DNA of 64,000 bases from Henricia sp. BOLD:AAB3569. Taxonomy: Eukaryota; Echinodermata; Asteroidea; Spinulosida; Echinasteridae. A program made the translations under genes and the position numbers. The stretch spans positions 1,803,001-1,867,000 of the forward strand of contig JBBELK010000095.1 in assembly GCA_037783545.1 (NCBI GenBank), read 5' to 3'. A model generated the notes under the pieces. That model saw only the letters and a program-made list of their open reading frames with translations, was not told the DNA's origin and ran no database searches. Position 1 is the stretch's first letter; each line of letters opens with the position of its first letter. Below are positions 1-64,000 of the stretch, piece after piece.

Positions 1-797
1 AATCTGATAAAGCCATTACTATAACTACTTAATTCTTTCCTTTAAATTTAGTCAATAATGTAAACACAAAATGTGCAACCATTCACGTCCTCAAGCAACA
101 AAGAAACTGCCCTATACAAGATGGCAGCTATTCGATACGGTCTACATGTATATGGTGGTTCCGTACAAGATGTGAATTGCTGTAATTTTGACATTGTCCC
201 TGATGGCACTCTGTGAATTTGCGAAATATTGAATGATTACCTTTATGAACATTTTAAGAAAACTTATTCAGATTTGTTCGATCTAACTTAACAAAAAAAC
301 GAGAAAAAACCCAACACATTTATATGTACCACCTTGGATAACAAAATATTTGACCACCTACAACCTGACAACAAAAATAACATCAAAAATGTTTGTTAAT
401 GTCTCATTTAAATCCTTTTAAGAAGTCTTATAGCAATATTTGATGCCATGTAAGCCATCTGATCTAATGACTATTGTCTATAAGACCAAACATGATAAAC
501 ATAATATTGAGGGCATTATGATAAGCAATACCCACGTGAGTTGAGCATTATAGTTTTATATTTTGCACTTTGCACTCTAGTTTTACAGTTTATTAGTGCT
601 ACGGCTCCCATTGCTTATATCTCATGATAATCATCAGCCCAGTTGCTGCTGAAGAGTAATGGTTTTTAATAAAACATTGTAATTCAATATTTTTTTCCAA
701 GGCTGTACCTTTCAGAAATATGCAATAATTACATTTGTGAACATTTTAAAAACCATGACTTGATAATTTTGTCTATTTTTTTCTTGACATACTATAG

Positions 798-1905
798 TGA
801 GATCCACAATATTGATGTCAAGGATACGAAGACCAAGGAGCATTACAGCATCCATTACAGCAAGTACTGTGGTCCAAGCAGCGACGGCCTCTCATGTAAT
901 GATAACGGAATCGCCACCAAGCTGCCACCGTTCCTGTTGCCGAAACCACCAAAAGCCAAGGCCAACTACATCTCCCACTTTTTCAAGAACGCACATACGT
1001 TCACATCTACATTTATGCCTCGATATGAGGGCAACTTGACCGGTGTACGGCACGTCACCTGTCTGTTTGCCTGCATGAGTTACCCCATGCTTGCAGTGCA
1101 GTGGATATCAAAGCCACTGTTGGCTCCATCCCTTTGGGAGTCTGTGGTGCTCAGCCCCATGGACTATGACATCACCTTGGGGATGGTCATCAAGGCAGCA
1201 GGAGTCAGTGCTGTACTCCTGCCCGTCTTCTTCGCCACTGAAGTCTTGGGACGCGTCACTCCGACGATATACTCTTTATACAGACATACTCCTCTGGGAC
1301 AGCCTGCTAAATGCAACGTCTTAAATAACAACTCTAATACTCTTACAGTAATTGAAATGCAATCCGATGAGGAGCAACCATCAACTAGTCAGGTTTTACC
1401 CGTTACGACTGATTATAATCCAATTCTTTCCACAGATTCTATAGTCATTGAAATGCCATCAGACGAGGAGCAATTATCAACTAGTCAGGTTTTACCCGTT
1501 ACAACTAATTCGAATGCAATTCTTTCTACAGATTCTAAGTTTTTATCCGGCTCTTCACATCAAACCATTGTTAACAAACCTGAGATTTTTCAAATTCCAG
1601 ATCAGATCCCTATTCCAGCAAAGTCAGCCACCGAAGCCAAAGCTGGCAGCAGACTCTGCCTTGCACTTGTTGTTTGCTTTGGTCACATCCTCCTGATTGC
1701 GTCCTGTGTCATGGCTGTCCTGTGGTCTGTTTACTCCGTCCATGGCTTCTGTTGGAGTGCCTTCTGGGAATGGGCTGCCACTTCCATCATCTCGGTGCTC
1801 ATCCAGGCTGTCATCATAGACACACTTAAGGCCATCATTGTAACTTGTTTGAAGGGGCATCGCAACAAAAGGTCTACATCTGTACCTCATGCACTCATCC
1901 ATTAA
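798..1905 (+). CDS. Compact polycystin-1-like PLAT protein, copy 1 (exon 5 only; 5' part outside window)
   Basis: This is the terminal exon of the gene described in full at 7516-11857. The exon begins at the AG ending 'gacatactatag' (acceptor 796-797, preceded by a T-rich tract) and runs to the TAA at 1903-1905. It encodes residues 210-577: the last PLAT strand ('NIDVKDTKTKEHYSIHY'), TM2-TM3, the loop with a 32-residue duplication, and TM4-TM5. The open frame extends 13 codons upstream of the acceptor, but those codons are intron and begin with TTG, so they are not a start. Exons 1-4 are expected in the preceding unit to the left of the window (inferred from the other copies). Confidence 0.75.
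1444..1539 (+). repeat. Second copy of a 96-bp in-frame duplication inside exon 5
   Basis: Positions 1348-1443 and 1444-1539 are two tandem copies of a 96-nt (32-codon) segment. They encode residues ~393-424 and ~425-456, each beginning V-I-E-M-(Q/P)-S-D-E-E-Q and ending I-L-S-T-D-S. They lie in the predicted cytosolic loop between TM3 and TM4. Both copies are present in every array unit (U2 at 11300-11491, U3 21252-21443, and so on), so the duplication predates the array. Confidence 0.9.
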
Positions 1906-2110
1906 ATTTGAACATTTCAGTTTTAAATCAGTGGCAGAATGATAGCTCATCTGGAAAAGGAGTTTTGGGATGAAGGTCATGTGACAGAAACATGCCAGGA
2001 TCTTGTATATAGTTGTAAATATTGTGAATTTTGTAAATATTGTAAATATTGTATATATTGTTTTGTTGAGAAAAAACATACAAAATATAAAAAAGGGGGT
2101 TGTGTGAAAA
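1906..2110 (+). other. Candidate 3'UTR of the polycystin-like gene with Pumilio-type sites
   Basis: Downstream of the stop, five perfect TGTANATA words occur in 54 bp: 2004-2011, 2014-2021, 2032-2039, 2041-2048 and 2050-2057. TGTANATA is the DNA form of the Pumilio/PUF recognition element. An AATATA-type variant poly(A) signal (2084-2089) is followed by a GT-rich stretch (2095-2106), so the 3' end may lie near 2100; no canonical AATAAA is close. Equivalent clusters are at 11956-12009, 21908-21961, 31842-31895, 41781-41834 and 52011-52064. UTR status is inferred. Confidence 0.5.
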
Positions 2111-3186
2111 CAAAATCACACCAACAGTTTAATCCTGCAGGATCCAAAACAGTGGAAAGGTAATCATTGATATTCCCAAAGTACGAAGACCTATTTCTAT
2201 TCAGTGCACAATGTTGATCGTCAACTTCAAATCATGGTGAAAGGAATTTTTCTTTACAAATTCAGTATGTAATCGTCATCAGTAAATAACAATAATTTGG
2301 AATTCCAACTAGGCATGCACAACATGGAAGTTTTGACAATTTCACCGAATCCAAAATAATCCGCAGTCAACACCAGCAGAATGACACCTCAGTTGCTGAA
2401 CACTTTAACTGTACTAATCACTTCATTTCTGACATGTCCATACAGAGCCCGAGGCTCTTGGTCGCCACCCAGACCCTGTTCGACTCAGCAGAGAGAAACT
2501 TTGGATTAAACGACTCGGCAGCATCCAGCCACATTGTCTCAACATCCAGGAGGAAAATGATTAATGTTTTCATTTTCTTCCTCCCATTTCAACCAACTTC
2601 CTTGATTATTTTTAACCCAAATATTCCTCATTTCTGTCTGCCCTTTTATACCCTATTTCCCCTTTCTTTCCATCCCCTCCCCAACTAACGTCACCCCATT
2701 TCCTCAACCCAAACCCCCTCATTTCCCCAACCCCCCTCTTCCAGTCCTGCTTCCCCCTAGTCCAATTGCCTCTAATGCTCACAGGCTCTTTTTTTTAAAA
2801 GAAACTTCAGCCTAGTCAACTTACCACCAATGTTAGTCTTGGATGTACCGGGAACATTACAATAATTTTTCACTTAGACTTCCGATAAACTGCTAAGACT
2901 TTGTGTTGTAAGTACACAAATTTAGCAGTTTTATACCATTTAACGTGGAATTGTTAACATCCATGCATTTAATGTGTCATAAATACCTGAATTTAATGTC
3001 AAAAACCATATTTTTGCTTCTCAGCTTGTCAAAGAATTATGTTTACTGGTCGCCACTTATTCTTCTTAATATATGACTCAGGAATCACCAAAAAGTGCTA
3101 ATAGTTTAAAGAGAAGTTTATTTACAAGTGATAACCATTAAACAATTTCCTTGAAAATACTTCAACTTTTTCTGCCAAATCCCACA
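2111..3186. other. Intergenic stretch without a recognisable gene; pyrimidine-rich tract at ~2575-2765
   Basis: I find no supported coding gene here; the open frame at 2434-2688 has no family resemblance. From ~2575 to 2765 the + strand is almost free of G and rich in C/T. On the minus strand, 2708-2736 has four G-tracts of 6, 4, 5 and 3 separated by 2-, 6- and 3-nt loops, a G-quadruplex-compatible pattern. It is conserved in all units (12660-12688, 22612-22640, 32532-32560, 42485-42513, 52715-52743). A T/A run just after it (~2789) varies between units. Confidence 0.6.
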
Positions 3187-3379
3187 GGGCGCTTTCACAG
3201 GAGGTCAAAAGGTCACGGGTCACTATTGCTCGTCTTCCACAACGGGAGAGGACAATAGAGCCAAGAGCCTTTCAGCTTGCAGCCACGTGCATTTCCCCAC
3301 GTGGCTCTATTGTTATCTGCCATTCTAGAAGACAAGCAATATAGTGACTGTGACCTTTTGACCCCCTGTGAAAGCGCCC
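3187..3379. mobile_element. Fold-back / MITE-like inverted repeat element (family A)
   Basis: The left arm (GGGCGCTTTCACAGGAGGTC...) is matched as an imperfect reverse complement by the right arm ending at 3379 (...CCTGTGAAAGCGCCC), and the inner arms also pair (CAATAGAGCCA with TGGCTCTATTG). No coding capacity, so it would be non-autonomous. Other copies: 13139-13331, 23092-23284, 33011-33203, 42964-43149, 53194-53379. The last two lack the same 7 bp in the loop. I saw no clear target-site duplication. Confidence 0.75.
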
Positions 3380-4048
3380 AATAGACTTAACAAGTCATCT
3401 CAGTGGCGACCAATGAATGGAATTCATGCCGCAACTTGCTTACACAATCTTTTTTTCCCTCAACAGGAACAGGAAACATAGAAGTCTTCTGATGATCATG
3501 GTTCACTTTTTAAATACAGAATGCCTAATAAAATTGTGCAAAATACAGCGATTTGAAGATAATTATACGCTTTATTGTATTAAAACTGAACAACAATGAG
3601 ATATGCAGAAAATCTCAATTATTGCTCATTTGATCAAGTCATGTGACCATGGATGAAAACTAATGGGGTATTTTTTAACGAAGAAGAATAAAAATGTACA
3701 TTATTGTTGTGAAGTTGGATGGCAAGATTATCAACCGTGTTGCCAGGAATCGATGGTGTTTTTTGGGATATAAACTGTTTTATTCTGCAATGTGGCACAC
3801 AAACAAATTATGAAATATAAAGCCTTTCAAAACATGCCAATAGAGATATTTCGGAAAGTGAAACACATTTGATTTTCAGAGTAAAAACATTATTTAAAGA
3901 AATGGGCACTTGGGTAAAACACTCGTTTTCTATAACCATATCAGCTGATTGTAAATAGGGGGAATTAATACTAGAAATAAATAATTGAAACGAAAAATTT
4001 GAGTGTCATGGTCTAATTTGTTTACAGCTTCTCATCGTGGCTTAATAA
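3380..4048. other. Intergenic, AT-rich, no feature seen
   Basis: No gene, inverted repeat or recognisable element. AATAAA words occur at 3527 and ~3688 but are too far from exon 5 to be an obvious poly(A) signal for it. Confidence 0.5.
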
Positions 4049-4240
4049 GGGGCAATTTCCTGTTTAGAAGAAACATTTGCTTAGTACAAAAACATTTGCT
4101 TTGCAAAAAATTGGTAAGCAGTTAAAAACGAATTATGTCTTACAATGAACACAAGTTCACATACGTTTTTAACTGCTATTCCATTTTTGCAAAGCTAGTA
4201 AATTTTGTATGCAGTAAAATGTTCTGCTATGAAATCGTCT
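4049..4240. mobile_element. MITE-like inverted repeat element (family F)
   Basis: Nested arms pair around a short centre: GCTTTGCAAAAA (4099-4110) with TTTTTGCAAAGC (4184-4195), and AGCAGTTAAAAACG (4117-4130) with its exact complement at 4164-4177. The left end, GGGGCAATTTCC, resembles the ends of element B and the fragments near 5508-5542 and 6540-6606. Other copies: 14001-14192, 23954-24145, 33873-34064, 43819-44010, 54049-54240. The right boundary is approximate. Confidence 0.6.
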
Positions 4241-4548
4241 ATTTGAATGAATAATGCAAACATCCTGGGGCAACTTGAAGTCTTATGTTTTTCTTTATTT
4301 TTCCCCTTGTGTTTTCCTGAAGTGTGATGCACCCCAAACAGTGCCCTCTTTCTGTGATTTACTGCAATGAAATCTTCAAAGTTGAAAAAGGCTACATTTT
4401 ATTGGTTTTACATCAAAACGAACAATAGTAATGTCTCAATAAACAAGTAATCCATCATATGCAGCAAAGACTAGGCATAAAGTTGTTTAGCAGTCATGGG
4501 CTCACGAAAAAAGTTCTTGCGCCAATCTATGCCATAAGTGTCATGTGA

Positions 4549-4753
4549 CCAGGGGCCAATTCTGTGATAATTAAATTTTTGCTTTGTAATATCGTTTACC
4601 AGTGAAAATTGTATCTCAAATTGTGCTTTAGAAACAGCAGAATATTAATGAACATCGCACACGATTTTGGCCGGTCACCCATTTTGGCAATATAAAGCAA
4701 ATAAATCCTGTACTAGTACTTTTAATAAGCAAATGTTTGGAATTGGCCCCAGG
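4549..4753. mobile_element. MITE-like element (family B) with CCAGGGGCCAATTC termini
   Basis: Starts CCAGGGGCCAATTC and ends GAATTGGCCCCAGG, nearly perfect terminal inverted repeats, followed on both sides by an AGCAAA/TTTGCT-rich inner arm. Non-coding. Related single ends (GGGGCCAATTTCATAA-like) occur inverted at about 5508-5542 and direct at about 6540, suggesting degraded relatives. Other copies: 14501-14705, 24434-24638, 34373-34577, 44319-44523, 54549-54753. Confidence 0.65.
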
Positions 4754-5070
4754 TGTCTAATGAGTATTTATGAAAGGAAACTCGGATTATTTTAATTCTT
4801 CATACATAGTCTTGGAATAAGCAAAAGTATGAAACTTTCATCATAAAAGAAGTGCTTATCCATAGTGACCAGTATTCAGATTGACTAGTTTCAATGTTGC
4901 TTGGCAGTGGGTCTTGATGGCAGGAGCTATTGAGTGACGTCACTTAAGGAGATCAAAAAAAACCAAGGTTGTATTGAATCAAGAAAACTGGCCATATTGG
5001 AACATTTGTCATGGTGTCTTCGTAATTTGAGCCAGAGAACCAATGATAGCAGAATCTCTAGTACATCCTT

Positions 5071-5083
5071 GTTGCTTAGCAAC
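5071..5083. promoter_or_regulatory. RFX X-box-like palindrome
   Basis: GTTGCTTAGCAAC holds two perfect RGYAAC-type half-sites in inverted orientation with a 1-nt spacer, matching the RFX-factor X-box pattern; a third AGCAAC half-site follows at 5096-5101. X-boxes control many ciliary genes, and polycystins are often ciliary. It lies ~2.4 kb upstream of the exon-1 ATG and next to element C, so a link to this gene is only inference. Present in every unit (U2 15023-15035). Confidence 0.35.
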
Positions 5084-5109
5084 TGTATTTTCCTTAGCAA
5101 CAAAGCCCA

Positions 5110-5253
5110 GCAGCCGATTTCACGAAACTTACGCAGTTGCGTAAGCCCACGTGCGCAATGTTTTATTGCGTAAGTCGCGCAACAATTTAGCGACGATAAC
5201 ACGCAAGCTGTGGGGCTTGCGCAAGCTGCGCACTCTTTCGTGAAATCGGCTGC
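5110..5253. mobile_element. MITE-like element (family C), GCAGCCGATTTCACGAAA ends
   Basis: The 18-bp terminal inverted repeats are exact (5110-5127 and 5236-5253). The interior is unusually rich in TTGCG/CGCAA words. About 144 bp, non-coding. Open frames crossing it on both strands are by-products of the inverted repeat. Other copies: 15062-15205, 24995-25138, 34934-35077, 44880-45023, 55110-55253. Confidence 0.75.
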
Positions 5254-5550
5254 AACATGAATATTGATTTCAAACAAATCTAAACCGGAAAGACCAAATG
5301 CCTGCAGGTTATACTTGGATAAGGTTCTCCATGGGGTACTCTTCCAAAATGGGCCATTATAAATGTAGGTTTTGATAACAAATACAATTAAGTGACGTCA
5401 CTAAAATAAAATAAAAGGCCGTTGCCTATACGTTGCATGACATCGAGAAACCTGGTGATGTCAAAAACTTATTTCAGATCAACTAGCAGCAGACCACCGC
5501 CCAAGCATTTTCTGCTAAACGGCGTTATGAAATTGGCCCCAGGCTGGAGT

Positions 5551-5690
5551 CTATAGTGTAATCCGAGCAACATTTGGTGAGCCCGCCCTCTTGTGATTAT
5601 TCCATTGTTACTGCGGTGTATTTCTATTGTGACGTCATGTAAATACCTTGGAGATACACCGCAGTTTTCTTTCGTCGGATTAGTCTATAG
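5551..5690. mobile_element. 140-bp TIR element (family D) with internal hairpin
   Basis: Left end CTATAGTGTAATCCGAGCAA; the right end read backwards is CTATAGACTAATCCGACGAA, so the terminal inverted repeats match at most positions. Inside, CTGCGGTGTA (5611-5620) pairs with TACACCGCAG (5655-5664), framing a TGACGTCA palindrome (5630-5637). TA or TATAG may be the target duplication. Other copies: 15503-15642, 25436-25575, 35375-35514, 45321-45460, 55551-55690. Confidence 0.65.
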
Positions 5691-6007
5691 GATCCCTGGC
5701 CCTGTGAATGTGGGAAGTTGTATATCGGCGAGACTGGAAGGGACCTATACCCACCAGACTCGAAGAACAGAGAAGACTATGACAAATCAGCCATTGTCAA
5801 GCACTCCGTACAGTACAGCGAGGACATATCATCAACTGGGAAACCGCACAACTGATAGCGCCCATCGACAGATGGCACCCAAGACGCATCAGGGAAGCCA
5901 TCGAAATACACAAGCACGACACAGTACCCCAATACATTGGCTTCGACATCAGCAATATCTGGCACTCTCCATTAACCAACCAGATCGATGGATCACCTAC
6001 ACCCTAG
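5691..6007 (+). pseudogene. Decayed Penelope-like retroelement fragment: GIY-YIG endonuclease remnant
   Basis: In the frame ending ...TAT ATC GGC the DNA reads PCECGKLYIGETGRDLY, the typical Cys-containing start of the GIY-YIG endonuclease of Penelope-like elements. After a frameshift and a stop, another frame reads RWHPRRIREAIEIHKHD and then 'IWHSPL', matching the end of that domain. The reverse-transcriptase part is absent, so this is a 5'-truncated dead copy. It abuts element D directly. Other copies: 15643-15959, 25576-25892, 35515-35831, 45746-46062, 55691-56007. Assignment is by remembered family motifs. Confidence 0.7.
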
Positions 6008-6839
6008 GTCCTCCCTCCACGACAGCCACTGCATGCCACAATGACACGTACCAGTGAGCACACCACGGCCAGGCACAGAATTAAGAGCATAACCACGCCT
6101 CCTCAACCGTACCCAAGCCATTCAGCTTGAGTGAACACATTGTACACTGAATGCCCGCAACCATACTTATGGGTGCACCCAAGTAAACAGGAAGAGATCC
6201 GTGCGCGAGCTCATGAATATTTTGTATGCCTCAAGTTCTTCTTTATTGGGGAGAGTTGCGAGCTGAATGAGGGTGGTCTTGTGTATAATATGACCATCGT
6301 CGCGATGTTGGGTATTTTTTCTTGCAACCATAAACATTGTAGGCACTGTAGCTCCTAAAAGTGGCCCTATTTTGCTAGTAGCGTATGTGCCTTTGTTCCA
6401 AAATGGATGCTGGTCTGATTAGCAAGTTTCACTGCTGCAGGGGTTGTTTTGTTTCAAGTGGAAATTAGTGAATAAAAGTGACGGATTACCCCCATGAAAT
6501 TGAACAGAATTGAAAAGATGAGACTTCAGTGAGTATTCCGGGGGCAATTTCATAAAGCTGTTTAGCAAAAATATTTGCTTAAATCAAAAATTTGTCTGCT
6601 TTATATATATGGGTTATAAAAATGGTTTAATTTCTTTTAAATACATTATTAGGGGTCGTTTAAAGTTGTCAACATTTTCAGTTCTACAAATAGTCGAAGA
6701 CGGCCTGTGCGCTGTAAAATGTTGACATTTCATGCTAGGGCTATGCCTACTATATACCGACACAAACAAAATGTTATTATAAAGTATGCCTATGGGGATC
6801 GAACTGTGACCATGGTGACTGCCCCCAATTACCAAGTTT
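6008..6839. other. Intergenic; possible 3' trailer of the Penelope remnant, then no feature
   Basis: The first ~120 bp may be the 3' end of the Penelope fragment. Near 6540-6606 there is a GGGGGCAATTTCATAAAGC end like those of elements B and F. No gene is supported. Confidence 0.4.
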
Positions 6840-7515
6840 GCAAACGTGGCATTTAATCTCTGTTCGTGTCTCAGCTCACAGTCACAGCCATGTAAACGAA
6901 ACTTGAGTTTTGACATTGAATTAATTAATCGCGATCCCAAAAGAAAAAGGAGGCGGGGCTGCCAGGGAGTCTCGGAGAGCGAAATCTGTCGATTCCAAGT
7001 CGTTGGAATGGAAAACAAAAGATCGTTCGACCGGCTGACGTCATTCCGCCCGCGCACGTAGGTACGTGGCCCGCACCCGGCCCTGTCCGTCTTCAAGGAA
7101 GTAACAAAAGGACTGCTAACCAGTCTATTCCCATAATTCCTCGCGAAAAGTATAGAAAGTCCACACTTTTTACTAGGCGTGCTCATGGAGTTCAACAAAA
7201 AGCAAAGAGAGGGTAAAGTTATCTTCACAAATTAACTAGTTTATTTGGATTTAATAGATTTAACCTAGCCCAGGAATGAAGTCTTCATGAAGCCAACGTT
7301 ATACAGAGTTTTGAACGCCGAGTATAATTTTGCCAAGGAGATGGCATTCTCGCATCACGCGTTGTCAAGCAAAAGAAAGTCGCGTTCGTCGCGCACGCGT
7401 CTTCGGCGGTAGGAAAATCGAATGTTGTTCTTACAATGTGACACTTTCGTTCATTGCTTATGCAGTGTTGCACGTGTTTGATTTGTTCCTATGAAATCTT
7501 CTACAAAGTACTAGA
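6840..7515 (+). promoter_or_regulatory. CpG-rich candidate promoter and 5'UTR of the polycystin-like gene
   Basis: This is the GC-richest, most CpG-dense part of the unit (for example 7036-7080 and 7370-7410), immediately before the exon-1 ATG. It has a perfect CRE (TGACGTCA, 7036-7043) and a GC-box-like GGAGGCGGGGC near 6950. I see no convincing TATA box. A 7-codon uORF (ATG 7491, TAG 7512-7514) ends one base before the start codon. Equivalent CREs lie at 16988, 26922, 36861, 47091 and 57036. Promoter status is inferred from position and composition. Confidence 0.45.
7491..7514 (+). promoter_or_regulatory. Upstream ORF (7 codons) directly before the gene start
   Basis: ATG AAA TCT TCT ACA AAG TAC TAG encodes MKSSTKY, and its stop sits one nucleotide before the main ATG at 7516. 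It is identical in all six units (17443, 27377, 37316, 47546, 57491). Such spacing could damp or condition translation by reinitiation, if transcription starts upstream of 7491. Confidence 0.5.
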
Positions 7516-10500
7516 ATGCGAATTTTGCTGACAATTGCGATATTTTTGGGAGCTTTGGTCATCAAGACTGCAAGGTGGGTTCTGGTTTATATTTTAAACA
7601 TATTTTTCCTTGCATTATTTTCATTAGGCCTAGGTCTACCATGATTACTAGTTAGGTTAACATGGTTAAATTAACTTTAACCTTCAGGCAAGTTAGGTTG
7701 GCAGATTCATCAAATTTTCAAATTGCTCAAATCACATGAACTTTTTTAAAATTTATTTTTACAATTGTAAAGTAAAGACTAGAGTAAACAAAAACAAACT
7801 GCAGTGATCAACACGAAACATTCTCCCAAAGAAATAGTAGGGGCCTAGGTTCTAAAACTAGTCACAATTTGGAGGCACAAAAATGAATATAAAAAGGCTC
7901 TCATTGCAGATTGTGAATCTGCCTAGCCTAGTACCAGCCTACTGAGGATTGTTAAATGTTGATGACTTGTCCCAACCACCAAGTTAACATTAATACTGGG
8001 TCTAGGCCCAGTAAGTTTTTGTTTTACTATTTTCTATATAGGCCTAGGCCTAAAATAATTCAGTTAGACCTGAACAACCAAGTTTCCAAATAAAACAAAA
8101 AGGCCTAAATATTTTAGCGACAGCCAATCCTTTGTAATGACAATTGTATCCTTCTTTGCAGTTCCCAGACCCTGAGCACCATCTCGGGTCCCTTCCAGGG
8201 CAATCCTGCCATCTCTGCCCCGACTAGTGGTGACTGCCTCTCAACTGTTGATTGGCATGATATCATCTTCATCACTGCAGTCCCGATAGCTGCTGGCTTT
8301 GGACTGCTGCTGCTTGCTGCCTTTCTCAAAGATCTCAGACAGGCTTGCAAGGTAGGCCGACAAGTCAACAAGTTTGTAAACTCACTGGCATTAAACAAAT
8401 TCAACTTGGCTTTTTTATAGTCAGGATTCATTGTATTTAGTAATAGTAATATGATTTTTCCTTATATCTTTCCTTCAAACAGAGCAATGCAGCTCCTGGG
8501 TCCATCAGAGATAATCGGGCTGAAAATGAATGCACCTATATCATAGACATAAACTACGGCGGCCGTTCAAAATGGGGTTCATTCCTGCGTTGGTGTGTCT
8601 GGCACAAATCATGTCGCAGAATCGGAAGCACGTGTTTTGTGAGACTCCAAGGAACTATTGGCTTCAGTGACTGGTAAGTTGATCAAGAAACTATTACATT
8701 CATTAAAAACAGATTACATGTTTGCACAACTTTTAAAAACAGGAACAACAGCATTACATAACTAAAGAATCATGTCGATAAACTGCTTCGTAGAAATTTC
8801 AATCACATAGATGCAGTAATACTTCAGAAAAACTGAAAAATCCATGCAAGTTTTTGTTGTGGTTGCGTACCATTGCTATACATGTATCAACACTTTTAGT
8901 CCGATTTTTCTTGTCATAATTTTGGTTAACCTGCAAATGTTGTATTGGGGCTTTAAGAGGACCCTGTTATTTTGTTAAGGTGATAATTGTATTTCGTTAT
9001 TGTTCGTTCTCTAGGATGATTTTTCGTCTGTTTCATGGACTGAATTCGGAACAGCAAACCCTAACAACACCTCAGTCCATCGGGGAAATTGTAACCGCGC
9101 AGGTACGCTTGGTGAAGATGCATCGACCGATTTTTGGATACCGCTTCCATACCAGTATTGGAGCCCGTCTGCGAGGAATCATCAACAGGGCATGTGATAC
9201 GTAAGTTTAGCTTCAATTTTTTCGTTTCTCCTATCTTGAACTAGGATTTCACAATCTCGTGGTTTTGACCTATAAATGGTATATTTGTCTACTTTTACTT
9301 GTGAAATAACGTGTGGGGGTTTTTCCTGAATGGTTGGCCTTGTTTAGTATATATACGCCAATCTGAGAGCTGAAGTCATGTTCCGTGTACGTCTGCCATA
9401 ACTGGGAGCCATCCAGTGCCATGAACTGTGGGTTTTGTGTTGATGATAAGCTGTTACATTATGTTGTCACTTTCAACAATTTTGTGCGTTTATTTGCTTG
9501 CGAAGCCTATACGCGTACGGTTTGTGCGCTGTTCGATTTAACAACAACACAGAGCACCAAGTTCATGGCAGTGGATTCGTCTATACATGACTCTGAAATG
9601 ACGTCACTTCCTACAAATTGTCACGTGCCTAAGGATCTTGAGTGTAATAGGCTGCGATGTATTTCGAACAAATTTCAAGCAAGATGCTCGTACTTGAATG
9701 CGTTATAGTACCATTTTCCCCGATACAAAGATGGCATCTGTGAGAGTGGTCAATAGACACCGTCTCGAATAGCGGCCACCTTGTGGGGTAACTTTTTATA
9801 TTTAAATTGAAAAGTTGATATAAAATTACAGATTTATAAGAAGTACAGATTTGATAAAATAAAACCTCAAATTTTGAAGCGGGAAAGATTAAAGATTTTC
9901 CTAGAAAATACTTATAAAAATGTTCAGACAGTCTCATGTGTTTTGTGCTCAAAATCTGATAAAGCCATTACTATAACTACTTAATTCTTTCCTTTAAATT
10001 TAGTCAATAATATAAACACAAAATGTGCAACCATTCACGTCCTCAAGCAACAAAGAAACTGCCCTATACAAGATGGCAGCTATTCGATACGGTCTACATG
10101 TATATGGTGGTTCCGTACAAGATGTGAATTGCTGTAATTTTGACATTGTCCCTGATGGCACTCTGTGAATTTGCGAAATATTGAATGATTACCTTTATGA
10201 ACATTTTAAGAAAACTTATTCAGATTTGTTCGATCTAACTTAACAAAAAAACGAGAAAAAACCCAACACATTTATATGTACCACCTTGGATAACAAAATA
10301 TTTGACCACCTACAACCTGACAACAAAAATAACATCAAAAATGTTTGTTAATGTCTCATTTAAATCCTTTTAAGAAGTCTTATAGCAATATTTGATGCCA
10401 TGTAAGCCATCTGATCTAATGACTATTGTCTATAAGACCAAACATGATAAACATAATATTGAGGGCATTATGATAAGCAATACCCACGTGAGTTGAGCAT

Positions 10501-11857
10501 TATAGTTTTATATTTTGCACTTTGCACTCTAGTTTTACAGTTTATTAGTGCTACGGCTCCCATTGCTTATATCTCATGATAATCATCAGCCCAGTTGCTG
10601 CTGAAGAGTAATGGTTTTTAATAAAACATTGTAATTCAATATTTTTTTCCAAGGCTGTACCTTTCAGAAATATGCAATAATTACATTTGTGAACATTTTA
10701 AAAACCATGACTTGATAATTTTGTCTATTTTTTTCTTGACATACTATAGTGAGATCCACAATATTGATGTCAAGGATACGAAGACCAAGGAGCATTACAG
10801 CATCCATTACAGCAAGTACTGTGGTCCAAGCAGCGACGGCCTCTCATGTAATGATAACGGAATCGCCACCAAGCTGCCACCGTTCCTGTTGCCGAAACCA
10901 CCAAAAGCCAAGGCCAACTACATCTCCCACTTTTTCAAGAACGCACATACGTTCACATCTACATTTATGCCTCGATATGAGGGCAACTTGACCGGTGTAC
11001 GGCACGTCACCTGTCTGTTTGCCTGCATGAGTTACCCCATGCTTGCAGTGCAGTGGATATCAAAGCCACTGTTGGCTCCATCCCTTTGGGAGTCTGTGGT
11101 GCTCAGCCCCATGGACTATGACATCACCTTGGGGATGGTCATCAAGGCAGCAGGAGTCAGTGCTGTACTCCTGCCCGTCTTCTTCGCCACTGAAGTCTTG
11201 GGACGCGTCACTCCGACGATATACTCTTTATACAGACATACTCCTCTGGGACAGCCTGCTAAATGCAACGTCTTAAATAACAACTCTAATACTCTTACAG
11301 TAATTGAAATGCAATCCGATGAGGAGCAACCATCAACTAGTCAGGTTTTACCCGTTACGACTGATTATAATCCAATTCTTTCCACAGATTCTATAGTCAT
11401 TGAAATGCCATCAGACGAGGAGCAATTATCAACTAGTCAGGTTTTACCCGTTACAACTAATTCGAATGCAATTCTTTCTACAGATTCTAAGTTTTTATCC
11501 GGCTCTTCACATCAAACCATTGTTAACAAACCTGAGATTTTTCAAATTCCAGATCAGATCCCTATTCCAGCAAAGTCAGCCACCGAAGCCAAAGCTGGCA
11601 GCAGACTCTGCCTTGCACTTGTTGTTTGCTTTGGTCACATCCTCCTGATTGCGTCCTGTGTCATGGCTGTCCTGTGGTCTGTTTACTCCGTCCATGGCTT
11701 CTGTTGGAGTGCCTTCTGGGAATGGGCTGCCACTTCCATCATCTCGGTGCTCATCCAGGCTGTCATCATAGACACACTTAAGGCCATCATTGTAACTTGT
11801 TTGAAGGGGCATCGCAACAAAAGGTCTACATCTGTACCTCATGCACTCATCCATTAA
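7516..11857 (+). CDS. Compact polycystin-1-like PLAT/multi-pass membrane protein, copy 2 (5 exons, 577 aa)
   Basis: Coding exons: 7516-7574, 8162-8351, 8483-8673, 9015-9200, 10750-11857. All introns have GT/AG ends with T-rich acceptors, and the phases join exactly (1734 nt). Residues 1-20 form a signal peptide (MRILLTIAIFLGALVIKTA). TM1 is at ~54-75. A PLAT-like domain spans ~102-228, with the strands 'TYIIDINYGG', 'GSTCFVRLQG' and 'NIDVKDTKTKEHYSIHY'. TM2 is at ~293-313, TM3 ~335-356, TM4 ~495-520 and TM5 ~535-560. The 'RHVTCLFACM' start of TM2 and the W..TSI.S...QA....LK spacing at TM5 resemble polycystin-1/REJ proteins, where the PLAT lies in the cytosol between TM1 and TM2. It lacks REJ/GAIN/GPS and the TM6-11 channel half, so it is probably not a channel by itself. 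Its role is unknown; membrane scaffold or partner of a polycystin-2-like channel is inference. Family assignment is by eye. Leu14 is private to this copy (Ser14 in the others). Confidence 0.75.
9352..9585 (-). mobile_element. Resident, internally deleted copy of the TIR element family E, in intron 4
   Basis: The segment starts TATACGCCAATCTGAGAGC and ends GGATTCGTCTATA. In reverse complement it matches the 285-bp U5 insertion over most of its length but lacks most of one inner inverted repeat, jumping from 'gcagtgga' to the terminal 'ttcgtctata'. The open frame at 9385-9708 is created by this element and is not a gene. Other copies: 19304-19537, 29238-29471, 39177-39410, 49407-49640, 59352-59585. 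Confidence 0.7.
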
Positions 11858-14800
11858 ATTTGAACATTTCAGTTTTAAATCAGTGGCAGAATGATAGCTC
11901 ATCTGGAAAAGGAGTTTTGGGATGAAGGTCATGTGACAGAAACATGCCAGGATCTTGTATATAGTTGTAAATATTGTGAATTTTGTAAATATTGTAAATA
12001 TTGTATATATTGTTTTGTTGAGAAAAAACATACAAAATATAAAAAAGGGGGTTGTGTGAAAACAAAATCACACCAACAGTTTAATCCTGCAGGATCCAAA
12101 ACAGTGGAAAGGTAATCATTGATATTCCCAAAGTACGAAGACCTATTTCTATTCAGTGCACAATGTTGATCGTCAACTTCAAATCATGGTGAAAGGAATT
12201 TTTCTTTACAAATTCAGTATGTAATCGTCATCAGTAAATAACAATAATTTGGAATTCCAACTAGGCATGCACAACATGGAAGTTTTGACAATTTCACCGA
12301 ATCCAAAATAATCCGCAGTCAACACCAGCAGAATGACACCTCAGTTGCTGAACACTTTAACTGTACTAATCACTTCATTTCTAACATGTCCATACAGAGC
12401 CCGAGGCTCTTGGTCGCCACCCAGACCCTGTTCGACTCAGCAGAGAGAAACTTTGGATTAAACGACTCGGCAGCATCCAGCCACATTGTCTCAACATCCA
12501 GGAGGAAAATGATTAATGTTTTCATTTTCTTCCTCCCATTTCAACCAACTTCCTTGATTATTTTTAACCCAAATATTCCTCATTTCTGTCTGCCCTTTTA
12601 TACCCTATTTCCCCTTTCTTTCCATCCCCTCCCCAACTAACGTCACCCCATTTCCTCAACCCAAACCCCCTCATTTCCCCAACCCCCCTCTTCCAGTCCT
12701 GCTTCCCCCTAGTCCAATTGCCTCTAATGCTCACAGGCTCTTTTTTTAAAAAGAAACTTCAGCCTAGTCAACTTACCACCAATGTTAGTCTTGGATGTAC
12801 CGGGAACATTACAATAATTTTTCACTTAGACTTCCGATAAACTGCTAAGACTTTGTGTTGTAAGTACACAAATTTAGCAGTTTTATACCATTTAACGTGG
12901 AATTGTTAACATCCATGCATTTAATGTGTCATAAATACCTGAATTTAATGTCAAAAACCATATTTTTGCTTCTCAGCTTGTCAAAGAATTATGTTTACTG
13001 GTCGCCACTTATTCTTCTTAATATATGACTCAGGAATCACCAAAAAGTGCTAATAGTTTAAAGAGAAGTTTATTTACAAGTGATAACCATTAAACAATTT
13101 CCTTGAAAATACTTCAACTTTTTCTGCCAAATCCCACAGGGCGCTTTCACAGGAGGTCAAAAGGTCACGGGTCACTATTGCTCGTCTTCCACAACGGGAG
13201 AGGACAATAGAGCCAAGAGCCTTTCAGCTTGCAGCCACGTGCATTTCCCCACGTGGCTCTATTGTTATCTGCCATTCTAGAAGACAAGCAATATAGTGAC
13301 TGTGACCTTTTGACCCCCTGTGAAAGCGCCCAATAGACTTAACAAGTCATCTCAGTGGCGACCAATGAATGGAATTCATGCCGCAACTTGCTTACACAAT
13401 CTTTTTTTCCCTCAACAGGAACAGGAAACATAGAAGCCTTCTGATGATCATGGTTCACTTTTTAAATACAGAATGCCTAATAAAATTGTGCAAAATACAG
13501 CGATTTGAAGATAATTATACGCTTTATTGTATTAAAACTGAACAACAATGAGATATGCAGAAAATCTCAATTATTGCTCATTTGATCAAGTCATGTGACC
13601 ATGGATGAAAACTAATGGGGTATTTTTTAACGAAGAAGAATAAAAATGTACATTATTGTTGTGAAGTTGGATGGCAAGATTATCAACCGTGTTGCCAGGA
13701 ATCGATGGTGTTTTTTGGGATATAAACTGTTTTATTCTGCAATGTGGCACACAAACAAATTATGAAATATAAAGCCTTTCAAAACATGCCAATAGAGATA
13801 TTTCGGAAAGTGAAACACATTTGATTTTCAGAGTAAAAACATTATTTAAAGAAATGGGCACTTGGGTAAAACACTCGTTTTCTATAACCATATCAGCTGA
13901 TTGTAAATAGGGGGAATTAATACTAGAAATAAATAATTGAAACGAAACATTTGAGTGTCATGGTCTAATTTGTTTACAGCTTCTCATCGTGGCTTAATAA
14001 GGGGCAATTTCCTGTTTAGAAGAAACATTTGCTTAGTACAAAAACATTTGCTTTGCAAAAAATTGGTAAGCAGTTAAAAACGAATTATGTCTTACAATGA
14101 ACACAAGTTCACATACGTTTTTAACTGCTATTCCATTTTTGCAAAGCTAGTAAATTTTGTATGCAGTAAAATGTTCTGCTATGAAATCGTCTATTTGAAT
14201 GAATAATGCAAACATCCTGGGGCAACTTGAAGTCTTATGTTTTTCTTTATTTTTCCCCTTGTGTTTTCCTGAAGTGTGATGCACCCCAAACAGTGCCCTC
14301 TTTCTGTGATTTACTGCAATGAAATCTTCAAAGTTGAAAAAGGCTACATTTTATTGGTTTTACATCAAAACGAACAATAGTAATGTCTCAATAAACAAGT
14401 AATCCATCATATGCAGCAAAGACTAGGCATAAAGTAGTTTAGCAGTCATGGGCTCACGAAAAAAGTTCTTGCGCCAATCTATGCCATAAGTGTCATGTGA
14501 CCAGGGGCCAATTCTGTGATAATTAAATTTTTGCTTTGTAATATCGTTTACCAGTGAAAATTGTATCTCAAATTGTGCTTTAGAAACAGCAGAATATTAA
14601 TGAACATCGCACACGATTTTGGCCGGTCACCCATTTTGGCAATATAAAGCAAATAAATCCTGTACTAGTACTTTTAATAAGCAAATGTTTGGAATTGGCC
14701 CCAGGTGTCTAATGAGTATTTATGAAAGGAAACTCGGATTATTTTAATTCTTCATACATAGTCTTGGAATAAGCAAAAGTATGAAACTTTCATCATAAAA

Positions 14801-17800
14801 GAAGTGCTTATCCATAGTGACCAGTATTCAGATTGACTAGTTTCAATGTTGCTTGGCAGTGGGTCTTGATGGCAGGAGCTATTGAGTGACGTCACTTAAG
14901 GAGATAAAAAAAAACCAAGGTTGTATTGAATCAAGAAAACTGGCCATATTGGAACATTTGTCATGGTGTCTTCGTAATTTAAGCCAGAGAACCAATGATA
15001 GCAGAATCTCTAGTACATCCTTGTTGCTTAGCAACTGTATTTTCCTTAGCAACAAAGCCCAGCAGCCGATTTCACGAAACTTACGCAGTTGCGTAAGCCC
15101 ACGTGCGCAATGTTTTATTGCGTAAGTCGCGCAACAATTTAGCGACGATAACACGCAAGCTGTGGGGCTTGCGCAAGCTGCGCACTCTTTCGTGAAATCG
15201 GCTGCAACATGAATATTTATTTCAAACAAATCTAAACCGGAAAGACCAAATGCCTGCAGGTTATACTTGGATAAGGTTCTCCATGGGGTACTATTCCAAA
15301 ATGGGCCATTATCAATGTAGGTTTTGATAACAAATACAATTAAGTGACGTCACTAAAATAAAATAAAAGGCCGTTGCCTATACGTTGCATGACATCGAGA
15401 AACCTGGTGATGTCAAAAACTTATTTCAGATCAACTAGCAGCAGACCACCGCCCAAGCATTTTCTGCTAAACGGCGTTATGAAATTGGCCCCAGGCTGGA
15501 GTCTATAGTGTAATCCGAGCAACATTTGGTGAGCCCGCCCTCTTGTGATTATTCCATTGTTACTGCGGTGTATTTCTATTGTGACGTCATGTAAATACCT
15601 TGGAGATACACCGCAGTTTTCTTTCGTCGGATTAGTCTATAGGATCCCTGGCCCTGTGAATGTGGGAAGTTGTATATCGGCGAGACTGGAAGGGACCTAT
15701 ACCCACCAGACTCGAAGAACAGAGAAGACTATGACAAATCAGCCATTGTCAAGCACTCCGTACAGTACAGCGAGGACATATCATCAACTGGGAAACCGCA
15801 CAACTGATAGCGCCCATCGACAGATGGCACCCAAGACGCATCAGGGAAGCCATCGAAATACACAAGCACGACACAGTACCCCAATACATTGGCTTCGACA
15901 TCAGCAATATCTGGCACTCTCCATTAACCAACCAGATCGATGGATCACCTACACCCTAGGTCCTCCCCCCACGACAGCCACTGCATGCCACAATGACACG
16001 TACCAGTGAGCACACCACGGCCAGGCACAGAATTAAGAGCATAACCACGCCTCCTCAACCGTACCCAAGCCATTCAGCTTGAGTGAACACATTGTACACT
16101 GAATGCCCGCAACCATACTTATGGGTGCACCCAAGTAAACAGGAAGAGATCCGTGCGCGAGCTCATGAATATTTTGTATGCCTCAAGTTCTTCTTTATTG
16201 GGGAGAGTTGCGAGCTGAATGAGGGTGGTCTTGTGTATAATATGACCATCGTCGCGATGTTGGGTATTTTTTCTTGCAACCATAAACATTGTAGGCACTG
16301 TAGCTCCTAAAAGTGGCCCTATTTTGCTAGTAGCGTATGTGCCTTTGTTCCAAAATGGATGCTGGTCTGATTAGCAAGTTTCACTGCTGCAGGGGTTGTT
16401 TTGTTTCAAGTGGAAATTAGTGAATAAAAGTGACGGATTACCCCCATGAAATTGAACAGAATTGAAAAGATGAGACTTCAGTGAGTATTCCGGGGGCAAT
16501 TTCATAAAGCTGTTTAGCAAAAATATTTGCTTAAATCAAAAATTTGTCTGCTTTATATATATGGGTTATAAAAATGGTTTAATTTCTTTTAAATACATTA
16601 TTAGGGGTCGTTTAAAGTTGTCAACATTTTCAGTTCTACAAATAGTCGAAGACGGCCTGTGCGCTGTAAAATGTTGACATTTCATGCTAGGGCTATGCCT
16701 ACTATATACCGACACAAACAAAATTTTATTATAAAGTATGCCTATGGGGATCGAACTGTGACCATGGTGACTGCCCCCAATTACCAAGTTTGCAAACGTG
16801 GCATTTAATCTCTGTTCGTGTCTCAGCTCACAGTCACAGCCATGTAAACGAAACTTGAGTTTTGACATTGAATTAATTAATCGCGATCCCAAAAGAAAAC
16901 GGAGGCGGGGCTGCCAGGGAGTCTCGGAGAGCGAAATCTGTCGATTCCAAGTCGTTGGAATGGAAAACAAAAGATCGTTCGACCGGCTGACGTCATTCCG
17001 CCCGCGCACGTAGGTACGTGGCCCGCACCCGGCCCTGTCCGTCTTCAAGGAAGTAACAAAAGGACTGCTAACCAGTCTATTCCCATAATTCCTCGCGAAA
17101 AGTATAGAAAGTCCACACTTTTTACTAGGCGTGCTCATGGAGTTCAACAAAAAGCAAAGAGAGGGTAAAGTTATCTTCACAAATTAACTAGTTTATTTGG
17201 ATTTAATAGATTTAACCTAGCCCAGGAATGAAGTCTTCATGAAGCCAACGTTATACAGAGTTTTGAACGCCGAGTATAATTTTGCCAAGGAGATGGCATT
17301 CTCGCATCACGCGTTGTCAAGCAAAAGAAAGTCGCGTTCGTCGCGCACGCGTCTTCGGCGGTAGGAAAATCGAATGTTGTTCTTACAATGTGACACTTTC
17401 GTTCATTGCTTATGCAGTGTTGCACGTGTTTGATTTGTTCCTATGAAATCTTCTACAAAGTACTAGAATGCGAATTTTGCTGACAATTGCGATATTTTTG
17501 GGAGCTTCGGTCATCAAGACTGCAAGGTGGGTTCTGGTTTATATTTTTAACATATTTTTCCTTGCATTATTTTCATTAGGCCTAGGTCTACCATGATTAC
17601 TAGTTAGGTTAACATGGTTAAATTAACTTTAACCTTCAGGCAAGTTAGGTTGGCAGATTCATCAAATTTTCAAATTGCTCAAATCACATGAACTTTTTTA
17701 AAATTTATTTTTACAATTGTAAAGTAAAGACTAGAGTAAACAAAAACAAACTGCAGTGATCAACACGAAACATTCTCCCAAAGAAATAGTAGGGGCCTAG

Positions 17801-19904
17801 GTTCTAAAACTAGTCACAATTTGGAGGCACAAAAATGAATATAAAAAGGCTCTCATTGCAGATTGTGAATCTGCCTAGCCTAGTACCAGCCTACTGAGGA
17901 TTGTTAAATGTTGATGACTTGTCCCAACCACCAAGTTAACATTAATACTGGGTCTAGGCCCAGTAAGTTTTTGTTTTACTATTTTCTATATAGGCCTAGG
18001 CCTAAAATAATTCAGTTAGACCTGAACAACCAAGTTTCCAAATAAAACAAAAAGGCCTAAATATTTTAGCGACAGCCAATCCTTTGTAATGACAATTGTA
18101 TCCTTCTTTGCAGTTCCCAGACCCTGAGCACCATCTCGGGTCCCTTCCAGGGCAATCCTGCCATCTCTGCCCCGACTAGTGGTGACTGCCTCTCAACTGT
18201 TGATTGGCATGATATCATCTTCATCACTGCAGTCCCGATAGCTGCTGGCTTTGGACTGCTGCTGCTTGCTGCCTTTCTCAAAGATCTCAGACAGGCTTGC
18301 AAGGTAGGCCGACAAGTCAACAAGTTTGTAAACTCACTGGCATTAAACAAATTCAACTTGGCTTTTTTATAGTCAGGATTCATTGTATTTAGTAATAGTA
18401 ATATGATTTTTCCTTATATCTTTCCTTCAAACAGAGCAATGCAGCTCCTGGGTCCATCAGAGATAATCGGGCTGAAAATGAATGCACCTATATCATAGAC
18501 ATAAACTACGGCGGCCGTTCAAAATGGGGTTCATTCCTGCGTTGGTGTGTCTGGCACAAATCATGTCGCAGAATCGGAAGCACGTGTTTTGTGAGACTCC
18601 AAGGAACTATTGGCTTCAGTGACTGGTAAGTTGATCAAGAAACTATTACATTCATTAAAAACAGATTACATGTTTGCACAACTTTTAAAAACAGGAACAA
18701 CAGCATTACATAACTAAAGAATCATGTCGATAAACTGCTTCGTATAAATTTCAATCACATAGATGCAGTAATACTTCAGAAAAACTGAAAAATCCATGCA
18801 AGTTTTTGTTGTGGTTGCGTACCATTGCTATACATGTATCAACACTTTTAGTCCGATTTTTCTTGTCATAATTTTGGTTAACCTGCAAATGTTGTATTGG
18901 GGCTTTAAGAGGACCCTGTTATTTTGTTAAGGTGATAATTGTATTTCGTTATTGTTCGTTCTCTAGGATGATTTTTCGTCTGTTTCATGGACTGAATTCG
19001 GAACAGCAAACCCTAACAACACCTCAGTCCATCGGGGAAATTGTAACCGCGCAGGTACGCTTGGTGAAGATGCTTCGACCGATTTTTGGATACCGCTTCC
19101 ATACCAGTATTGGAGCCCGTCTGCGAGGAATCATCAACAGGGCATGTGATACGTAAGTTTAGCTTCAATTTTTTCGTTTCTCCTATCTTGAACTAGGATT
19201 TCACAATCTCGTGGTTTTGACCTATAAATGGTATATTTGTCTACTTTTACTTGTGAAATAACGTGTGGGGGTTTTTCCTGAATGGTTGGCCTTGTTTAGT
19301 ATATATACGCCAATCTGAGAGCTGAAGTCATGTTCCGTGTACGTCTGCCATAACTGGGAGCCATCCAGTGCCATGAACTGTGGGTTTTGTGTTGATGATA
19401 AGCTGTTACATTATGTTGTCACTTTCAACAATTTTGTGCGTTTATTTGCTTGCGAAGCCTATACGCGTACGGTTTGTGCGCTGTTCGATTTAACAACAAC
19501 ACAGAGCACCAAGTTCATGGCAGTGGATTCGTCTATACATGACTCTGAAATGACGTCACTTCCTACAAATTGTCACGTGCCTAAGGATCTTGAGTGTAAT
19601 AGGCTGCGATGTATTTCGAACAAATTTCAAGCAAGATGCTCGTACTTGAATGCGTTATAGTACCATTTTCCCCGATACAAAGATGGCATCTGTGAGAGTG
19701 GTCAATAGACACCGTCTCGAATAGCGGCCACCTTGTGGGGTAACTTTTTATATTTAAATTGAAAAGTTGATATAAAATTACAGATTTATAAGAAGTACAG
19801 ATTTGATAAAATAAAACCTCAAATTTTGAAGCGGGAAAGATTAAAGATTTTCCTAGAAAATACTTATAAAAATGTTCAGACAGTCTCATGTGTTTTGTGC
19901 TCAA
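9953..19904. repeat. Array unit U2
   Basis: Same length as U1; add 9952 to U1 positions. Carries exon 5 of copy 2 and exons 1-4 of copy 3. Shares with U6 the variants 'aagtagttt' (14436) and 'gaaaacggagg' (about 16896), and with U4 the T7A5 form of the T/A run near 12741. Exon 4 has a private A-to-T change (His183Leu). Confidence 0.95.
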
Positions 19905-21809
19905 AATCTGATAAAGCCATTACTATAACTACTTAATTCTTTCCTTTAAATTTAGTCAATAATGTAAACACAAAATGTGCAACCATTCACGTCCTCAAGC
20001 AACAAAGAAACTGCCCTATACAAGATGGCAGCTATTCGATACGGTCTACATGTATATGGTGGTTCCGTACAAGATGTGAATTGCTGTAATTTTGACATTG
20101 TCCCTGATGGCACTCTGTGAATTTGCGAAATATTGAATGATTACCTTTATGAACATTTTAAGAAAACTTATTCAGATTTTTTCGATCTAACTTAACAAAA
20201 AAACGAGAAAAAACCCAACACATTTATATGTACCACCTTGGATAACAAAATATTTGACCACCTACAACCTGACAACAAAAATAACATCAAAAATGTTTGT
20301 TAATGTCTCATTTAAATCCTTTTAAGAAGTCTTATAGCAATATTTGATGCCATGTAAGCCATCTGATCTAATGACTATTGTCTATAAGACCAAACATGAT
20401 AAACATAATATTGAGGGCATTATGATAAGCAATACCCACGTGAGTTGAGCATTATAGTTTTATATTTTGCACTTTGCACTCTAGTTTTACAGTTTATTAG
20501 TGCTACGGCTCCCATTGCTTATATCTCATGATAATCATCAGCCCAGTTGCTGCTGAAGAGTAATGGTTTTTAATAAAACATTGTAATTCAATATTTTTTT
20601 CCAAGGCTGTACCTTTCAGAAATATGCAATAATTACATTTGTGAACATTTTAAAAACCATGACTTGATAATTTTGTCTATTTTTTTCTTGACATACTATA
20701 GTGAGATCCACAATATTGATGTCAAGGATACGAAGACCAAGGAGCATTACAGCATCCATTACAGCAAGTACTGTGGTCCAAGCAGCGACGGCCTCTCATG
20801 TAATGATAACGGAATCGCCACCAAGCTGCCACCGTTCCTGTTGCCGAAACCACCAAAAGCCAAGGCCAACTACATCTCCCACTTTTTCAAGAACGCACAT
20901 ACGTTCACATCTACATTTATGCCTCGATATGAGGGCAACTTGACCGGTGTACGGCACGTCACCTGTCTGTTTGCCTGCATGAGTTACCCCATGCTTGCAG
21001 TGCAGTGGATATCAAAGCCACTGTTGGCTCCATCCCTTTGGGAGTCTGTGGTGCTCAGCCCCATGGACTATGACATCACCTTGGGGATGGTCATCAAGGC
21101 AGCAGGAGTCAGTGCTGTACTCCTGCCCGTCTTCTTCGCCACTGAAGTCTTGGGACGCGTCACTCCGACGATATACTCTTTATACAGACATACTCCTCTG
21201 GGACAGCCTGCTAAATGCAACGTCTTAAATAACAACTCTAATACTCTTACAGTAATTGAAATGCAATCCGATGAGGAGCAACCATCAACTAGTCAGGTTT
21301 TACCCGTTACGACTGATTATAATCCAATTCTTTCCACAGATTCTATAGTCATTGAAATGCCATCAGACGAGGAGCAATTATCAACTAGTCAGGTTTTACC
21401 CGTTACAACTAATTCGAATGCAATTCTTTCTACAGATTCTAAGTTTTTATCCGGCTCTTCACATCAAACTATTGTTAACAAACCTGAGATTTTTCAAATT
21501 CCAGATCAGATCCCTATTCCAGCAAAGTCAGCCACCGAAGCCAAAGCTGGCAGCAGACTCTGCCTTGCACTTGTTGTTTGCTTTGGTCACATCCTCCTGA
21601 TTGCGTCCTGTGTCATGGCTGTCCTGTGGTCTGTTTACTCCGTCCATGGCTTCTGTTGGAGTGCCTTCTGGGAATGGGCTGCCACTTCCATCATCTCGGT
21701 GCTCATCCAGGCTGTCATCATAGACACACTTAAGGCCATCATTGTAACTTGTTTGAAGGGGCATCGCAACAAAAGGTCTACATCTGTACCTCATGCACTC
21801 GTCCATTAA
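17468..21809 (+). CDS. Compact polycystin-1-like PLAT protein, copy 3
   Basis: Exons 17468-17526, 18114-18303, 18435-18625, 18967-19152 and 20702-21809, with splice sites and phases identical to copy 2. All frames are open. It differs from the consensus copy at His183Leu (exon 4, in the PLAT-like domain) and Ile576Val (next to the C-terminus). Both are single-base changes in an otherwise identical frame, so the copy looks functional. Confidence 0.74.
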
Positions 21810-63755: not shown

Positions 63756-64000
63756 TCAAATCAAATCAAATCAAAGGGCAAACAAAATGGCTGATGATGT
63801 CAGAAAGCAAGCAGTGAGTAGGCCTAATAGACCGGCCCGGAGCCTTACGCACACAAAGGAACTGGCACACTATAGAACACACGTGAGCATGCCAATCCAA
63901 CCGCGCGCGAAAAACCCCAAACAGGTCCATGATCAGGCAAAACAAGATAAACAAAATCAGGTTAAATTATCAAGTTGCGGAAAGTTGGTGATGGTTTGCT
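63421..64000. other. LINE 5'UTR/promoter followed by unassigned flank
   Basis: The part next to 63421 is presumably LINE 5'UTR. A CAAAATGGC word (~63784), similar to a YY1 site, lies just beyond the (TCAAA)4 run. No array sequence is recognisable here, so the tandem array does not continue on this side. I see no supported gene. Confidence 0.4.

Follow-up and report, generated by a model that had tools for sequence, protein, structure and literature searches.

The stretch of DNA considered here, hereafter the window, comprises 64,000 nucleotides of the sea star Henricia sp. BOLD:AAB3569 (assembly GCA_037783545.1, contig JBBELK010000095.1, here C95, positions 1803001-1867000), and most of it is taken up by head-to-tail copies of one gene, whose product is predicted to be a multi-pass membrane protein. 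The first complete copy (copy 1) lies on the plus strand at 7516-11857 and consists of five exons separated by four introns, all of them GT-AG, with phases 2/0/2/2; once spliced, it encodes 577 amino acids followed by TAA. This is exactly the model that had been proposed in an earlier note made from the sequence alone. The exons of copy 1 are as follows, TM standing for transmembrane segment.

7516-7574, plus strand: exon 1, with the ATG and a signal-peptide-like leader, ending in phase 2; an exon 1 with ATG is found in 12 of the 16 loci modelled (see below).
8162-8351, plus strand: exon 2, a short segment free of lysine and arginine, leading into TM1.
8483-8673, plus strand: exon 3, initial part of the soluble region that follows TM1, read in the earlier note as a PLAT domain but giving no PLAT match.
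9015-9200, plus strand: exon 4, second part of the soluble region after TM1.
10750-11857, plus strand: exon 5, with the last part of the soluble region, then TM2 (marginal) through TM5, a low-complexity loop, a short basic C-terminus and TAA.

A hydropathy scan of the copy-1 protein finds a signal-peptide-like N-terminus and TM near residues 54-72, 336-354, 495-513 and 539-557, while the supposed TM2 near 293-312 is absent from the listing at the cut-off used. No lysine or arginine is found between the leader and TM1 and five are found in the C-terminus, a pattern which fits an N-out, C-in topology. The protein may then be pictured as a cleavable-looking leader, a short outside N-terminus, TM1, a stretch of about 215 residues that is mostly soluble, two TM hairpins with a low-complexity loop between them and, on the inside, a short basic C-terminus. 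The loop before TM4 harbors a tandem duplication of about 33 residues (VIEM.SDEEQ.STSQVLPVTT; a 98-nucleotide direct repeat at 11296-11489 of the window, in exon 5), which together with its surroundings is missing in loci with a shortened loop, e.g., L032 and L033. Other loci with an exon 1 give modelled proteins of 493 to 644 amino acids, as counted from exon lengths. Exon 5 alone, modelled by AlphaFold2 from a 10-sequence input, reached a predicted local distance difference test (pLDDT) value of 36, too low to be informative about the fold. The frame stops after TM5 and none of the 22 matches to the channel family PF08016 in the 740.7 Mb assembly, which is the genome referred to in all own-genome searches below, lies on a contig bearing the array, in agreement with the earlier statement that the channel half is missing.

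Head-to-tail units, repeating at about 9.95 kb, fill the window from 1 to 59695; the pieces are 99.6-99.9% identical to unit 1 (99.6-99.8% for the complete units 2-5). The frame is open in all five copies that are complete in the window (ATG at 7516, 17468, 27402, 37341, and 47571), as had been claimed, and copies 2-5 show one to four coding-base differences from copy 1. The units can be listed as follows.

1-7515, plus strand: unit before copy 1, truncated by the window edge; its exon 5, from 798, encodes identical protein.
7516-17467, plus strand: repeat unit 1, 9952 bp when counted from ATG to ATG.
17468-27401, plus strand: repeat unit 2, with an intact five-exon gene at 17468-21809.
27402-37340, plus strand: repeat unit 3, with an intact gene at 27402-31743.
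37341-47570, plus strand: repeat unit 4, with an intact gene at 37341-41682 and 266 bp extra at 45461-45726.
47571-57515, plus strand: repeat unit 5, with an intact gene at 47571-51912.
57516-59695, plus strand: repeat unit 6, interrupted within intron 4 by a long interspersed nuclear element (LINE).

The family extends far beyond the window. In an own-genome search with exon 5, 111 of 457 candidates were scored and 118 matches listed, and all copy counts are lower bounds. At least 93 matches are 95-100% identical to the window gene, cover positions 1-368 and are free of stops; they are distributed over C95 (50), C159 (28), C1094 (five), C1491 (three), C708, C585, and C69 (two each) and C293 (one). 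On C95, at least 50 exon-5 copies are spread over about 525 kb with a usual spacing of about 9.95 kb, and the array comes as close as 4 kb to the end of the contig; it presents the tens of near-identical, kilobase-scale, head-to-tail units by which a homogenised tandem array is recognised. Nine successive spacings on C159 measure 9.00-9.03 kb, as local unequal exchange would leave, which suggests a local expansion on that contig. At least six further matches, on C175, C886, and C667, are about 65% identical to the window gene, cover 2-368 and are stop-free (subfamily C). The remaining 19 rows listed consist of five partial matches, of which three have in-frame stops, and of 14 pieces, which by our own reading probably represent seven copies with a shortened loop. 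Altogether, family copies are present on at least 11 contigs. Regarding the assembly itself, the channel-gene loci on C152 and C15 agree with each other at 94.6% over 2.2 kb and at 96.6% over 3.4 kb; both haplotypes are probably kept in part, and the haploid copy number may therefore be about half of that counted. COX1 can be read without interruption in the echinoderm mitochondrial code, and a frame on the minus strand of the 16,221-bp mitochondrial contig resembles nad2 by eye, a gene order suggestive of a sea star.

Twenty loci were fetched and 16 of them modelled, leaving out L027 (short exon-2 deletion), L042 (degenerate), and L035 and L036 (no good exon-1 / exon-2 match). Every modelled intron of the 16 loci has a GT donor and 15 loci have no internal stop; acceptors were sought as an AG near the homologous place, so that the donors provide the freer test. 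No complete exon 1 was found in L025, L033, L034, and L040. Subfamily C keeps the five-exon plan, with a leader exon in four of its five modelled loci, the splice donors and a nearly equal end, the stop lying 33 codons further on in four of the five and later still in L024. Exon 2 of copy 1 shares 95-96% nucleotide identity with L026 and L024, both of subfamily C. Over the 500 bp upstream of the gene, copy 1 and L026 are 85% identical, which is above the values for the four introns of L026 (51-83%), while against L024 intron 2 (88%) exceeds the upstream identity.

Between copy 1 and L026, nonsynonymous and synonymous divergence (dN and dS) amount to 0.20 and 0.31, a ratio of 0.64 (bootstrap 0.51-0.78), and against five copies from C69, C293, and C708 dN/dS is 0.42-0.55. 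Neutral simulations using the transition bias of the introns gave a mean dN/dS of 0.87, with one of 400 runs as low as 0.64, and 7.8 stops per lineage, none of 800 lineages being stop-free. Single-nucleotide polymorphisms (SNPs) over 11 copies are rarer in exons (34/1675) than in introns (69/1958; p=0.007). A McDonald-Kreitman table was not significant (neutrality index 0.77, p=0.24), and the downstream 900 bp, with 184 SNPs per kb, were taken as misaligned and not used. Since the start, splice donors, frame and stop region persist in a subfamily of about 65% identity, where neutral drift gives about eight stops per lineage, a real gene is indicated, and with it the stand-alone gene type, as opposed to a broken fragment, that the earlier note had argued for.

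The reading we favor, with a probability of about 0.6, is that of an orphan (by Pfam and PDB), rapidly evolving multi-pass membrane-protein gene family that has been amplified into macrosatellite-like arrays. Its basis is what the data show, namely the structure of the gene, the constraint on its coding sequence, and the size and homogeneity of the array. The gene and about 5.6 kb of flanking DNA would have been amplified into head-to-tail arrays of units of about 10 kb, which unequal exchange may keep nearly identical (concerted evolution). The many copies would likely serve to set the dose of a membrane protein in one particular type of cell, while changes in its sequence are tolerated or favored; judging from the comparisons above, the protein evolves fast. 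The length of indels also fits a coding role: when copy 1 is compared with L026, all four of those in exons 3-4 are multiples of three, compared with 10 of the 37 intron ones (p=0.01). Exon 5, the DNA alignment of which includes gaps of 1, 2, and 7 bases among others, was excluded from this test.

Several further observations weigh against this reading. L028 carries one TGA in exon 3, and four of the 20 fetched loci are damaged or incomplete. The ratio of nonsynonymous to synonymous polymorphism (pN/pS) is 0.80 within the main array (26 nonsynonymous and 10 synonymous changes over 11 copies) and 0.89 within subfamily C; single pairs from the main array, which have few changes, give ratios of 0.9-2.2, and among the five window units exons vary like introns (3.46 vs 3.45 SNPs per kb). 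Along the gene, dS between copy 1 and L026 ranges from 0.03 to 1.13, and for TM4-5 taken separately the ratio is 2.3 (14 nonsynonymous and two synonymous changes), so the overall ratio mixes segments of different history. Coding constraint, as measured on these alignments, is moderate and uneven. The term orphan, finally, holds within Pfam and PDB.

A different origin was proposed in the earlier note, which placed the protein in the middle of polycystin-1 with a PLAT domain between TM1 and TM2. In this case a polycystin-1/REJ gene would have been reduced to TM1-PLAT-TM2-5 and its sequence would have run away, leaving a scaffold, a decoy or a partner of a polycystin-2-like channel. Such descent from PKD1 seems unlikely on the sequence comparisons made, but it is kept as a rival reading. 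The parts come in a similar order, a leader and a single TM being followed by a soluble region and by two TM pairs with a long loop between them, and channel-less REJ proteins occur in echinoderms (PMC1934368). However, Pfam gave no PLAT or PKD match in six of six family members, only weak unrelated names; an own-genome search with PF01477 at E<=10 found 43 PLAT places and one with the REJ family PF02010 found 26 matches, none of either on an array contig. PDB searches with a single sequence, with a family profile and with profiles of the PLAT-like part and of TM2-3 returned no PKD1-family chain, and what names they gave were again weak and unrelated. Pfam recognised no GPS/GAIN in the protein, for which no dedicated search was made, and about 32 residues separate the leader from TM1. 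The earlier note had named profile searches without a PLAT/PKD1 match as a refutation of its reading, and this is the outcome obtained; the label 'middle of polycystin-1' gained support from no search or profile test.

Positive controls give a measure of what a true relationship would look like. In block-shuffle tests, two REJ paralogues of the same genome score z 8.4 and 8.8 against TM2-3 of human PKD1, and an own-genome PLAT domain scores z 19.3 against human PKD1 PLAT, so that true family pairs fall at z 8-19; the control segments for these tests and for the TM2-3 hidden Markov model (HMM) were cut by eye. Against human PKD1, copy 1 reaches z 2.5 and L026 z 2.9 for TM2-3; for the PLAT region, the values are 2.0 and 0.2, and a PLAT domain between TM1 and TM2 found no backing. 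Compared with the REJ and PLAT sequences of its own genome, neither copy 1 nor L026 exceeds z 0.3. Membership in the PLAT/PKD1 family is not supported by the Pfam, PDB and own-genome profile searches, with controls at z 8-19 against at most 2.9. A domain diagram drawn by eye, here PLAT + TM1-5, needs a positive control.

The sequence signals in favor of descent come from human PKD1. The best full-length local alignment to it falls at the expected TM2-TM3 place (271-377 against 140-245), but its score is reached by 60-104 of 600 shuffles. An hhalign comparison matches at the same place (P 0.09), with P 0.036 over 19 columns when a three-sequence PKD1/REJ TM2-3 profile is used. The stretch from before TM2 to TM3, a region chosen after the hhalign result, gives z 2.3-3.2, reached by 21-67 of 2000 shuffles. 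Region tests gave p 0.022 for TM2-3 and p 0.064 for PLAT; other region pairings were null and TM4-5 showed no signal. Among the ungapped 25-mers of copy 1, the best one aligns FHGLNSEQQTLTTPQSIGEI with FHRNSLDIFRIATPHSLGSV of human PLAT. Against these stand a PKD1/REJ TM2-3 HMM, for which 169-434 of 2000 shuffles reach the score of copy 1 and three of seven decoys exceed it, an ordered profile-alignment test that was not significant, and a chained-window test, also not significant, in which the reversed control did better at one setting. When the HMM is reversed, human PKD1 scores above each of the seven decoys, yet shuffled versions of itself attain its score in 69-121 of 2000 cases. The favorable signals, as far as these sequences go, come from no sequence other than human PKD1 and lose their significance once the number of tests is allowed for; what remains is a weak in-register similarity to it from before TM2 to TM3.

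Intron positions also count against descent from PKD1. PLAT matches on C370, C340, C15, C1059, and C152 are interrupted around PLAT position 48-59, whereas in a hand alignment the introns of the array gene would fall near PLAT 40 and 85; PLAT matches on C1, C777, and C654 show no break near 48-59. In the same genome, two places on other contigs (C654, about 200268-223000, and C135, about 138070-158000), perhaps two alleles, show REJ, PLAT and weak TM2-3 matches and 645-amino-acid open frames, and no PF08016 match, so that channel-less REJ genes may exist here, off the array contigs.

Any role as scaffold or decoy next to a polycystin-2-like channel presupposes descent from PKD1, which is unproven. 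Less probable still is the fuller scenario built on it, in which a PKD1 derivative without ectodomain or channel, too diverged to be recognised by sequence and carried in a gene-bearing macrosatellite of about 100 copies, would act in a dose-dependent way through its TM1-5 as a partner of polycystin-2-type channels or a decoy for them, perhaps in gametes. If descent from PKD1 were true, the gene would represent a natural separation of the polycystin-1 membrane scaffold from sensor and channel.

It could also be supposed that the array is a macrosatellite with a chromosomal role, in chromatin or structure, and that the reading frame it carries is a relic. Its size and homogeneity and the position of the C95 array near a contig end resemble human macrosatellites, and constraint among array copies is weak. 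This is nonetheless improbable, given that frame, splice donors and start are kept in diverged copies outside the main array, that neutral drift would have broken the frames, and that exons vary less than introns over 11 copies. Transport of the gene around the genome by a mobile element is more improbable again. Copies do lie on many contigs, in L029 and L031 the part shared with the unit is mostly a core of roughly 6.3 kb surrounding the gene, and L023, L024, L026-L029, L031, and L042 have their left limit of similarity near unit position 9507-9536; but five open reading frames (ORFs) outside the gene, not all that there are, have no Pfam match, the introns are kept, the copies form head-to-tail arrays, and some loci match further out. 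An assembly artefact, which near-identical repeats might invite and of which the mitochondrial genome gives an example in C955 (a concatemer with three COX1 16,221 bases apart, the length of the mitochondrial contig C2104), is hardly credible for units that differ in substitutions, indels, length and insertions, whose length differs among contigs and which occur on so many of them.

Other features of the window can be mentioned briefly. The LINE in intron 4 of copy 6 occupies 59696-64000 on the minus strand and has an open frame at 60169-63441 (1090 amino acids) with PHD, endonuclease and reverse transcriptase. The extra 266 bp at 45461-45726 are found in the spacer of unit 4 only and are 89% similar, in reversed orientation, to the stretch 9373-9576 of intron 4. 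By eye, 13139-13359 and the equivalent place in other units are palindromic and resemble a miniature inverted-repeat transposable element; part of this stretch also matches fetched loci in reverse orientation. An ORF fragment at 5680-5980 without Pfam match resembles, by eye, what we take to be a decayed retroelement nuclease end. No Rfam matches or tRNAs were found in the window.

With regards to known systems, a literature search of one open-access library turned up no such stand-alone form or array, which is not proof of absence; to our knowledge, it is unusual for a multi-exon membrane-protein gene to form large homogenised arrays. About 50 near-identical copies in half a megabase raise the question of dosage, germline conflict or sex linkage. 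The closest likeness of parts is with polycystin-1/REJ proteins, in the leader, TM1, soluble region, TM pair, long loop and TM pair; unlike these, the array protein has no ectodomain and no detectable PLAT, REJ or channel domain, and the similarity is not significant. PMC1934368 defines the REJ family by its REJ domain and describes, besides sea-urchin forms with 11 TM, others with six (SpREJ7), two (SpREJ2), one (SpREJ1/8/9) or none (SpREJ10). The ten SpREJ genes are reported there as single copy with 20-52 exons, in contrast with the five exons and about 100 copies of the array gene.

Among echinoderms, 185/333 is another expanded gene family. Lineage-specific expansion is also described for the sea-urchin SRCR receptors. 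Compared with both families, the copies considered here are near-identical and in tandem, and they encode a multi-pass protein in which no Pfam domain is recognised. Human macrosatellite units, too, can hold genes, RS447/USP17 being another example. Those of the TAF11-Like and PRR20 arrays (described in PMC3018141) and of D4Z4/DUX4 share with the sea-star array the kilobase-scale head-to-tail units and the large arrays; the array differs in that its unit of about 10 kb carries a multi-exon membrane-protein gene, has copies on at least 11 contigs, has a diverged sister subfamily and belongs to another phylum.

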